From assembly GCF_001281045.1 (NCBI RefSeq), contig NZ_CP012622.1, positions 310,001 to 374,000 on the forward strand: a stretch of 64,000 nucleotides of DNA. Direction: 5' to 3'. The DNA comes from Spiroplasma cantharicola. Its GTDB lineage: Bacteria; Bacillota_I; Bacilli_A; Mycoplasmatales; Mycoplasmataceae. The position numbers were made by a program, and so were the translations under genes. Positions 9,642 to 15,170 of this stretch are shown here, piece by piece; positions within the stretch are counted from its first letter, which is position 1; each line of letters begins with the position of its first letter. The notes beneath the pieces were generated by a model. The model did not search any database. It was not told where the DNA came from and saw only the letters and a program-made list of their open reading frames with translations.

Positions 9642-11336
9642 ATGTTATTCTTGGCAGAAGAAGAAAAAGGCCATAACTTACTTAGAGATTTTGTAGCTAT
9701 TAGTACATGACAATCACTTGTGGCAATATCTATATTTATTTCTTTACAAGTAGGACTATGATTCTTTTTAAAAAAATATAAATTTGCATTTATGTACAGA
9801 GTTATTCTTGGTATGGCAATTGGTTTAATATTTGGTATAGTATTACAATCAATTATAGGTTTTCCAGATTCGGATTCTTTTGAAGAGATTTCAAAACCTT
9901 GAAATGAGCTATATTGAATTTATGAGTTAAATATTTGAGCGTCGTTCTTTAAAAATATATTTATTAATGGTGTTTATTTATTAACAGTGCCAATTGTTTT
10001 TATTGCAATATTTAAAATAACATCTAAACCAGGTGAAACTGGTTTGGGAAGAATTACAGCAAAAGGAATTGCATTATTGCTATTTAATGTTGCTGTAATG
10101 TTCACAATAACTTTTTTTATAGGGTTATTAGTAAAAGTAGGACAGGGATTTGAATTAACTTCAGATTCTTCTGTTACTGGTAAAGATAATGTACCTTTAC
10201 CTCAAATTATTTGAGAGTACATTCCAAATAATATTATTGGAGCTTTAGCAAAAAACACAATTATTCCTGTAATGGTAGTTGGAGCTTTAGCTGGTGGAAG
10301 TGTAAAAATTTTATCAAAAAGAAAACACGTTGAAATGGAAGCTATTAGAAAAGCAATGGATACAGGATGAGATGTTATGATGTCTATTTTAATGACATTT
10401 ATGAAAATCATGCCTTTAGCTGTTATGTCTATGATTACTGTTTCAATTACTTCAAGACCAATTGGAGCATTAGTTTCAATTGGAAAAATAATTGGTGTAG
10501 GTTATTTAGGAGTTGCTATTGCATTGGCTCTTTTAACATTAGAAATATTCTTAAGTGGAATAAAAGTTGGAGCTTGATGAAAAAACGCTTGAAAACCTTT
10601 AATCCAAGGTTTTTCTACACAATCTTCTAATGCTTCCTTGCCAATAGCAATGGAAACATTAACACAAGATATGAAAGTAAATGGAAGATCTGCAAACACA
10701 ATTCAACCAATTTCTACAACAATGGGATTGATTGCTTGTGCTGGAGTTCAATCAGGATTAGCAACAAGTATCTTATGAACAGGAACTAGTTCAGGAAGTG
10801 CTGTTCATGATATGGGGCTATTTACATTCTTTATAATGGCTTTATTTGTTACAGTAATTGCTTCACTTGGAATAGCAGGTGTTCCAGGAACTGCAACAGT
10901 TGTTACTGTTGGTGTACTTGGAGGTATTGGATTTGGAGGATATGCAGGAAGTGTCTTACAATTAATTGCACCTCTAGATGGTTTGTTTGATATGGGAAGA
11001 ACTGGTGCCAATGTTGTTGGAGGTGTTGCTGTTGCCACAATTGTTGCAAAATCAGAAGGACTAATTGAAGAAGGATCCAATCTTTTAAATGAAAGAGGAA
11101 TTCATTCACAACAAAGAATTCTAGAATCTAAAAATTTAAAAGATGAGCATACTAAAATTCTAATTTCCTTAAATTCCACATCAATGAAAGAATTAAAAAA
11201 TAAAGACTTAACAAAAGAAGATAAGGAAAAAATTAAACTTAAATTAAAAGAAGATTTAAAAAAAGAAAAGCAAGTATATAAAGAAAAGAAAATTATTTTT
11301 AAAGATAAAAATAATAAAAAAGGAGATAAAAAATAA
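9642..11336 (+). CDS. Dicarboxylate/amino acid:cation symporter (SDF family, possibly cystine)
   Basis: This is a secondary transporter of the DAACS/SDF family with multiple hydrophobic segments. The 564-residue protein has the family's serine-rich re-entrant loop, visible as STQSSNASLPIAMETL near 324-339, and a second polar loop with IQPISTTMGL. An SSNASLP-type loop is seen in TcyP-type cystine carriers, so cystine is a reasonable guess but not proven. The last 100 residues are a highly charged Lys/Glu cytoplasmic tail absent from typical family members. Many Trp codons are TGA. The stop shares one base with the ATG of the following lipoprotein gene. Confidence 0.88.
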
Positions 11337-12355: not shown

Positions 12356-13111
12356 GTGGAAAATGTACTATTATATTTTTCAATAAAATATAGCGGTGAT
12401 TGAGATCAAATTTATAATGCTTTAGATACAAAAGAAAAAATTACTCATAAAGATTTGGATGAAATTTCAAACAAGGTTGATTGTAATTTTATAACTATTT
12501 TAAACCCATTATATCCAAACTACTTAAAAAATACTCATAAACCACCATTTGTAATATTTTATAAGGGTGACTTGTCTCTTATTTCTAACCACAATAAAAC
12601 TATTGCATTAGTTGGTGGAGACGAGGTAAATGAGTATGGAATTAAAAGTACTCAAACTTTTATGAAGGAATTAAATGAAGAGGGTACAGTATTTTCTACA
12701 ATTGAAAATATTGGTGTAAACAATGAAGTATTGGATAATGGGTTAAAAAATAATTACAAACTAATTAAAATAGTTGAAGAAAGTATGAAAGATTATCTTA
12801 AAAAAACACTTGATATACCAGAAAGAAAAAATTTATTGGCAATTACAGAAATATATGAATCAAATAACAATATTGTTAATCTTATGGGAGATTATGCAAA
12901 TAGAATGTTATGTGGCATTTCAAAGGCAATCTTATTTATTCAATTTAAAGAACGAGATATAATAAAAAAACTATTCTCTTTTTCAATAAATGAAGGTAAA
13001 GAAGTCTTTGCAGTTCCTGATAGCATCTATTCAAAAAATGCTACAAATAAATTAATTAAAGATGGTGCAAAGTTAGTAGAAAATGCAAAAGATATATTAA
13101 ATCAGATTTAA
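12356..13111 (+). CDS. dprA: DprA/Smf-like protein, degenerate
   Basis: DprA protects incoming single-stranded DNA and loads RecA in transformation. The 251-residue product has the family's entry segment (LNPLYPNYLKNTHKPPFVIFYKGDL in two halves, about 43-67) and the C-terminal nucleotide-fold strands (EGKEVFAVPDSIYS). The usual motifs are altered: the GxRxxSxYG position reads GGDEVNEYG, the GiDxxAHxxAL segment is not recognisable, and the FPxRNRiiaxLS box reads IPERKNLLAITEI. The translation start is GTG directly after the ssb stop, with no clear SD, so it is coupled to ssb. It may be a non-functional relic or one retaining only a structural role. Confidence 0.75.
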
Positions 13112-13114
13112 TAA

Positions 13115-13123
13115 TGATATAAT
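13115..13123 (+). promoter_or_regulatory. Extended -10 promoter of the structured RNA
   Basis: TGATATAAT is a perfect extended -10 (TGnTATAAT), standing four bases after the dprA stop codon. Initiation about seven bases downstream would put the RNA start near 13130. No strong -35 was seen. Confidence 0.6.
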
Positions 13124-13128
13124 GTTTT

Positions 13129-13259
13129 TGTGATAGAAATATCACACTTGTAAGGCTAACGCCTAAAAAACTAAGTATAAATTAACTAATCATTTTATTC
13201 CCGACACACAAATGATAAAAGTTATTTAATTCAAAGAGAGATTTATCTCTCTTTTTTTT
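13129..13259 (+). ncRNA. Structured small RNA or attenuator leader, unknown family
   Basis: No reading frame covers this segment, but it folds compactly. Stem 1 is TGTGATA/TATCACA closed by a GAAA tetraloop (13129-13146). Stem 2 is AGGC/GCCT with a UAAC tetraloop (13153-13164) inside an outer ACTT/AAGT helix. Stem 3 pairs TAACT with AGTTA and ATCATTT with AAATGAT, leaving a 14-base loop TATTCCCGACACAC (13196-13209). A strong terminator, AAAGAGAGAT/ATCTCTCTTT plus an eight-T run, closes it. With its promoter just upstream, this is either an independent RNA of about 130 nt or a cis-acting leader of the ABC exporter. It does not match the SRP RNA, tmRNA or RNase P layouts I know; M. capricolum MCS4 RNA is of similar reported size, but I cannot compare the sequences. 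Confidence 0.65.
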
Positions 13260-13298
13260 GCTTTTTAATGTATAATTTTTAAGAAAAAGGTGAAAAAA

Positions 13299-15170
13299 AT
13301 GTCAAATAATAACATAATTGAAGAAGTAAGTTCAGAAAAAAAAGCAAAAAAGTCGAATAATAAAGAATTTAAAAAGAAAAAGAGTGGTAAAGCTTTCTTT
13401 GCTATTATTTTTCATTATTTAAAAAGACATCCATTAGTTGGTATATTTTTGGTTATACTAACATTTGCATCTTCTCTTGCAGGAGTTTTAAGTCCCAAAA
13501 TTATTCAAAATATTATGTTGATATTAGTTTCAAAAAGTACTGAAAATGAAATTACAACTACACCTCTATTTGGGTTTAATTTGACTTGACAAGATTGAAT
13601 TTATGTACAACTTGGATTATTTGGGTCATTGGCAATATTTACTTTTGCTTCAAATTATCTTGCAGGAATAATGGGTAAAAATGTGGAAATTGAACTAAGA
13701 AATAAAACATTAGAAAAACTAGTAAAACAAGATATGAGTTATTATTCTGATAAAAAAATTGGAGAAATACTAACAAAAATTGTTTCAGATACTCAAATTA
13801 TTGGAGATCAAGCACAACAAATACCAGTAACAATGTTAAATGCATCATTTACATTTTTTGGAGCATTAATTATGATGTTTACAATTGATACTTATTTAAC
13901 AGTGGTAGTAATAATAACAATGATCGTAATTGTAACATCAATATTTTCAAGTTTTGGAATTGTTAAAAAAGCAGCTTTCAAGACAAGAGATTCTATTACA
14001 TCAATTAATGGTGATGTAACAGATAGAATAGCAACTGTTAGATTAATTAAAGCATCAGGAACAGAAAATTATGAAACAGAAAGATTTAAAGAAATTCATA
14101 AAGATTACTTTAAAAAATCAAGTAGTTTAATTAAGTTGCAATCAACAATTGTAACTATTTTAGTAGCAGGAATAAGTTCAATTCAAATGATAATAGTTAT
14201 TGCTGCAGCAATAAAATGACATGATGAACCAGCAACAATTTCTGTTGTTTTAACAGCATTTATTTCATCAGTTGGAACAATGGTTGGACCAATTATGCAA
14301 GTTGCAAGATTACAAATTGGATTAATCCAAGCTTCAACTTCAGCTGTAAGAATTGATGAAATTCTTACTTCAAAATCAAGAATCGATCCTCATTATAATC
14401 CTGAAGAGGGAATTAGAATTGAAAATATTGATAAAGCAATTATCTTTAAAGATGTAGAGTTTAGATATCCAGAAAAACCCGAAAAAATTATTATTCCAAA
14501 ATTTTCATTTACATTTGAACATGGTAAATCTTATGCATTTGTAGGTGAAACTGGAGCAGGTAAATCAACAATAGCGAAACTATTGTTAAGATTTTATGAT
14601 CCTTTTAAAGGTAAAATTTTAATAAATGGAACTAATGATTTAAGAGATGTTAATTTAGCAAGTTATTTAGATAAAGTTGGTTATGTAGAACAAGAACCTC
14701 AAATTTTATTTGGAGATGTTCTAGATAATATCAAATATGGTCGATTTAATGCCACTGATGAAGAAGCTATTGAAGCTGCTAAGTTAGCTGAATTGCATGA
14801 CTTAGTAATGACTTGACCAGAAGGATACAAAACTATTCTTGGAGAACGTGGATTCATGTTATCTGGTGGTCAAAAACAAAGATTAGTAATTGCAAGAATG
14901 TTCTTAAAAGATCCTCAGTTATTAATTTTAGATGAAGCAACAAGTGCTTTAGATAATATTGTTGAAAAAGAAATACAATCTAAATTAGATACATTAATGA
15001 AGGGTAGAACAACTGTTACTATTGCACATAGATTAAGTACAATAAAAAATGTTGATACAATTATAGTATTGGCCCCTGAAAAAGGTATTGCTCAAGTTGG
15101 TAGTTTTAGTGAGTTAAAAAATAAAGCAGGTCACTTTAAAAATCTATACGATGCAGGATTGATGGGTTAA
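13299..15170 (+). CDS. ABC exporter (fused membrane and ATPase domains)
   Basis: This is a type IV ABC half-transporter of 623 residues that should work as a homo- or heterodimer. A Lys-rich N-terminal stretch precedes six membrane helices (about 45-350). The ATPase domain has Walker [10 protein letters not shown] (about 415-423), the LSGGQKQR signature (about 521-528), Walker [13 protein letters not shown] (about 540-551) and the H-loop AHRLS near 575. The start ATG has AAAGGTG upstream; GTG at 13290 is in frame but is part of that SD. It is clearly paralogous to the exporter at the right end of the window (both share an SYYSDKKIG segment). Substrate is unknown. Confidence 0.93.

Follow-up and report, generated by a model that had tools for sequence, protein, structure and literature searches.

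The interval between dprA and an ABC exporter gene of Spiroplasma cantharicola holds a compact structured element, which raises the question of whether it is an RNA gene in its own right or a leader of the exporter and, if the former, on which genes it would act. The window analyzed here is a stretch of 64,000 nucleotides covering positions 310001-374000 of the 1.18-Mb genome, with TGA read as tryptophan. A sequence-only reading of this DNA had described an extended -10 promoter, three hairpins and a strong terminator in a segment with no reading frame, and our inspection bears out each of these elements in its place, with the promoter TGATATAAT confirmed by direct reading (Table 1). The only frame found there is a 7-codon GTG frame in hairpin 1 (window 13130-13153: GTG ATA GAA ATA TCA CAC TTG TAA), and we judge it to encode no peptide, because it loses its start (GTC) in three relatives and its changes track the stem. 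The fold energy of the RNA is -27.2 kcal/mol against -14.6 +/- 2.8 for shuffled sequences (z -4.43; 0/200 as good), and the terminator is the sole one within 500 bases, where 0.1 would be expected. Hairpin 3 displays UUUUAUUCCCGACA within and beside its 14-base loop, and from the fourth U onward the loop bases are more than 90% unpaired in the fold ensemble.

Table 1. Parts of the small RNA (sRNA) locus and its flanking genes, in window coordinates
Feature	Position	Strand	Basis or remark
Small RNA	13129..13259	+	length ~125-130 nt; 5' end deduced from the -10 box
Hairpin 1, GAAA-type loop, TGTGATA-GAAA-TATCACA	13129..13146	+	direct reading and alignment A2
Linker CUUGUAA (CUUGUA part invariant)	13147..13153	+	alignment A2
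Hairpin 2, AGGC-UAAC-GCCU (DNA AGGC-TAAC-GCCT), loop variable	13153..13164	+	direct reading, pair changes
Hairpin 3, stem AUCAUUU/AAAUGAU around [TATTCCCGACACAC]	13189..13216	+	direct reading; 100% paired
UUUUAUUCCCGACA, predicted targeting sequence; first three U double as stem top	13193..13206	+	invariance, unpairedness, complementarity
Intrinsic terminator	13233..13259	+	stem 13233-13254, then T's
Extended -10 promoter TGATATAAT	13115..13123	+	direct reading
TATAAT, likely own promoter of the exporter, 3' of the sRNA terminator	13271..13276	+	direct reading
dprA, upstream neighbour, outside the RNA	12356..13111	+	Pfam PF02481, 5.4e-24
ABC exporter, downstream neighbour, outside the RNA	13299..15170	+	Pfam PF00664 and PF00005

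An orthologue of the sRNA is present in 20/20 genomes of its GTDB genus (blastn E 9e-68 to 4e-11; model R1), and UUUUAUUCCCGACA is identical in all 20. It had been suggested that relatives be examined for compensatory changes in the stems and for conservation of the loops, and both were found: in alignment A2, 98.4% of pair cells hold standard pairs, compared with at most 48% when the partners are slid, and three base pairs are altered on both sides. In hairpin 1 a G-C pair becomes C-G on both sides in three genomes, the closing C-G of hairpin 2 has given way to U-A in nine sequences and to U-G in two others, and a C-G pair of hairpin 3 is changed to U-A in G009. The CUUGUA linker and the segment 5' of hairpin 3 are also conserved in this alignment. 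The terminators of distant relatives have unrelated stem sequences in the same place, each with its T run. Because the sequences share ancestry, the shuffle counts are not to be read as probabilities, but these terminators, together with the switch from G-C to C-G in hairpin 1, would be difficult to explain without selection acting on the RNA.

In most of these genomes dprA lies upstream of the sRNA and the exporter downstream, an arrangement that, with a terminator preceding the exporter, would suit an attenuator or leader of the exporter whose terminator is read through under some signal. Against this, in G005 the exporter is absent and a different gene lies downstream, while promoter and terminator are kept; in G009 another gene stands upstream, the next gene downstream is on the opposite strand and the exporter is again absent, with the sRNA promoter and terminator kept; and a paralogue in G009 (L028), flanked on both sides by opposite-strand genes, again has a promoter and a terminator of its own. 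In G003 it is the upstream gene that lies on the opposite strand. A TGnTATAAT or TATAAT box is found at constant distance in nearly all copies, including the paralogue and the G009 copy away from dprA, and in the G003 copy the box is TATATT. Since the neighbours of the sRNA vary, the paralogue stands alone and the exporter carries its own TATAAT 3' of the terminator, a leader role is unlikely; the terminator hairpin is also retained in the minimum free energy and centroid folds alike, and altogether we regard the attenuator as very improbable. The sequence-only reading had left open an independent small RNA or an exporter leader; the evidence strongly favors the independent RNA, and G005, G009 and the paralogue contradict the leader. 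As far as sequence alone can tell, the element forms an independent transcription unit, as a trans-acting base-pairing sRNA would, and it is not always upstream of, and co-transcribed with, the exporter, as a cis-acting attenuator or riboswitch would be. The paralogue (L028 1485-1625; G009:C1:1214132-1214208) shares the 5' hairpin and CUUGUAAAAGG with the sRNA and has a different loop, UUUCAAUCCGACAAUG, possibly a second specificity, for which a search for targets in G009 gave one weak internal match only. As a separate observation, G018 has a split dprA and G011 a split ABC exporter (L017, L015).

The proposed covariance-model search against Rfam matched the sRNA to no family, consistent with its earlier description as being of unknown family: only tRNA reaches the gathering score in the window and nothing does in eight loci, and a permissive scan returned three chance-level matches only, none of them to RsaE/RoxS. 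The RNA likewise matches none of the family models for SRP RNA, tmRNA, RNase P and 6S RNA, in agreement with the view that its layout is unlike theirs. With model R1 there was no match at E 0.01 in the other 40 genomes of the family, and a search of 320 genomes across the order yielded only two further matches (E 0.016 and 0.024), which look like chance and were rejected, one lying inside a coding frame, the other belonging to a different RNA after truA. Ten exact pattern matches in GTDB, with a best model score of 26 bits, were also set aside as apparently due to chance. In all, 300 other genomes of the order yielded no convincing homologue of the sRNA. Apart from this, an intergenic structured RNA candidate was noted after truA in a different genus (L058 1440-1610; G026:C1), with a GGGUGUU/AACACCC closing stem followed by a terminator and no Rfam match at the gathering score.

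Candidate targets were sought in four genomes, each sampled over 400 kb or about one-third of its length, by computing duplex energies between the loop and script-predicted translation starts. The three best of 276 starts in the G000 sample belong to a permease (-14.4), lipoprotein b (-14.1) and lipoprotein a (-12.1), which are adjacent genes at genome positions 376930-387209; this ranking uses the stricter start prediction, and two lipoprotein starts had been noticed earlier in G000. The first five of 305 starts in the G006 sample are an ABC ATPase after GH85, two permease copies, lipoprotein b, and GH85, which represent a locus of this kind and a GH85 operon. The ATPase site, which runs into the end of the GH85 coding frame, may match by coincidence. 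The permease is an FtsX-type protein (PF02687) of ~1,745 codons, divergent from lipoprotein a, and the locus has one or two lipoproteins of ~800 codons each.

A loop match is present at the permease start in 11/11 orthologues tested, where it reads GUCGGG, GUUGGUGG, or (G)GGGAAU. The 11 permease starts have a mean of -14.5 kcal/mol compared with -8.1 +/- 1.3 for loop shuffles that keep CCC (0/1000 reach it), the seven left without G000, G014, G016 and G006 have a mean of -14.7 (0/1000), and 18 starts of the lipoprotein family without G000, G014 and G016 give -10.1 against -7.4 for shuffles (0/400). The subsets leave out the genomes that first drew attention to the site, along with those most closely related to them. 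Relatives of the two G000 lipoproteins were picked solely by protein similarity, and in nine genomes their starts show AGUCGGGGAAAAUG, AGUCGGGAAAAUG or UAUCGGGGGAUAAAAUG; at the lipoprotein starts of G011 and G007 a C to U change opposite a loop G keeps a G-U pair, the loop itself being invariant. The lipoprotein b leaders are best conserved in an AGUC(G)GGGAAAAUG block; in most cases this block sits between an AGGAG-like site and the AUG, so it is not simply a Shine-Dalgarno sequence. What emerges is a seed that is conserved and unpaired and that complements distant mRNAs close to their start codons. The sequence-only reading had suggested that the UUCCC of the loop could pair with GGGAA in ribosome-binding sites, which is supported in kind, but the gene it gave as an example, at 9642, is not special, ranking ninth of 54 window starts at -7.8 kcal/mol.

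The site is absent from the lipoprotein starts of G015, G001, G017 and G008, and no targets of the sRNA were found in G003 and G009. Enrichment across lipoproteins in general is seen in G006 and, for GGGG(A) starts, in G000, and is weak in G004 and absent in G001, two genomes whose lipoproteins do not as a rule have G-rich starts; because it is so uneven, we restrict the target claim to the named families. A single universal target with the full complement TGTCGGGAATAAAATGA was considered and rejected, its counts being little above the reversed control, and CUUGUAA and ACUAAU as second seeds led to no coherent targets. Two lipoprotein arrays were observed in passing: three tandem genes at window 30341, 31445 and 32569 (MKKLLAVLGSITL), with two GGGGA starts and one GGUGA start that make weak loop matches (-7.7 to -8.6 kcal/mol), and five near-identical tandem genes with near-identical leaders at genome positions 193633-196463 (L109).

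The GH85 glycosidase genes (PF03644) are less clear-cut candidates. Their starts often carry AGGGGAAUAAAAUG, and when GH85 sets are compared with CCC-keeping loop shuffles, 27/400 and 61/400 reach the observed values, which is weak beyond the CCC core and suggests that the set is not clearly special beyond its own G run. GH85 relatives in genus g8 have GGGGAAU-like leaders too, though the sRNA was not found there; those of L241, L243, L245, L246 and L247 read CUGGGGAAUGAAAGGA or CCGGGGAUAG. At the ~90 places inspected for a g8 counterpart RNA with a ATTCCCCAG loop, none resembled such an RNA. The GH85 gene of G018 (L196) is interrupted by several stops.

These G-rich g8 leaders fit with a different account of the stand-alone sRNA, in which its loop binds a protein or another RNA and the permease match is secondary, for example reflecting a G-rich leader element with a role of its own. 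This account would also accommodate the invariance of all 14 loop bases, which exceeds the needs of one seed, and the conservation of CUUGUA and the segment before hairpin 3, for which no target is known. However, the matches reach past the G run (0/1000 and 0/400 shuffles), and separate targets match distinct, overlapping parts of the loop, which would itself explain full conservation, and we consider protein or other-RNA binding unlikely.

The explanation we favor, and hold to be fairly likely, is that the feature is a stand-alone, trans-acting regulatory sRNA that blocks ribosome binding at the permease/lipoprotein module. Conservation, structure, independence from the neighbouring genes, and a loop-target complementarity well beyond chance are computed results, and we infer from sequence that the RNA is transcribed, that it pairs in the cell and that repression is the outcome. 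Its own extended -10 promoter and terminator would set the two ends of the sRNA transcript, and hairpin 3 would offer UUUUAUUCCCGACA to short leaders just 5' of start codons, the predicted partners being the mRNAs of the FtsX-type permease, of one or two lipoproteins at its locus and probably of the GH85 glycosidase lipoproteins. A loop-leader contact of 7 to 13 pairs would cover the ribosome-binding region, most likely leading to less translation of the surface module. The targets are predicted to differ in the part of the loop that they use, with overlap between these parts (GUCGGGAA, UCGGGGGAUAAAA, GGGAAUAAAA), and this would account for a loop that is fixed throughout. A more ambitious proposal, that this one genus-wide sRNA coordinates a surface regulon of FtsX permease, lipoproteins and GH85 operon, whose members read different parts of an invariant loop, is tentative, and we would place it somewhat short of an even chance. 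Genome-reduced bacteria of this kind are not known to have Hfq. Pairing sRNAs are known both to repress and to activate or stabilize their targets, and the sequence does not give the direction of regulation, so that the same mRNAs might instead be activated or stabilized; the sites overlap the ribosome-binding region as far as the start codon, however, and we find activation improbable. The sRNA thus probably switches off a membrane permease and its neighbouring surface lipoproteins.

For the non-coding transcripts of mollicutes, both transcriptional noise and a possible regulatory role have been discussed (PMC5138195). The locus described here contributes one genus-wide RNA that has a structure, a promoter, a terminator and a set of target leaders defined well enough to be tested, and it is a rare case in which both an sRNA and its likely targets can be read from the sequence of a genome-reduced bacterium. 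In insect-associated bacteria that have few transcription regulators, it offers a direct test of whether surface proteins are controlled post-transcriptionally.

Among known small RNAs, MCS4 of Mycoplasma capricolum is a mollicute RNA of similar size; model R1 has no convincing match outside the genus in 320 genomes of the order. A published RNA-seq study of two Spiroplasma species, S. diminutum and S. taiwanense, listed no highly expressed non-coding RNAs other than tmRNA and RNase P; it used an mRNA library kit and discarded contigs of <100 bases (PMC5726471). Because of these two features the absence of the sRNA from that study is weak evidence, and a short RNA could have escaped it. For Mycoplasma hyopneumoniae and its relatives, sRNAs have been predicted whose mRNA targets include lipoproteins and transporters (PMC5088518), and in this they resemble the Spiroplasma sRNA, whose own predicted targets are backed by conservation across species; that paper makes no mention of Spiroplasma. 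The Staphylococcus aureus RsaE and Bacillus subtilis RoxS RNAs are, like the Spiroplasma sRNA, stand-alone, similar in size and equipped with a C-rich motif. The model put forward for RsaE-type RNAs is that a UCCC motif base-pairs with the mRNAs they target and thereby blocks the initiation complex (PMC9266662). They differ in sequence and layout, and with no Rfam match the Spiroplasma sRNA is not a member of their family by that test. RsaE acts in metabolic adaptation, whereas the predicted targets of the Spiroplasma sRNA make up a permease-lipoprotein module.
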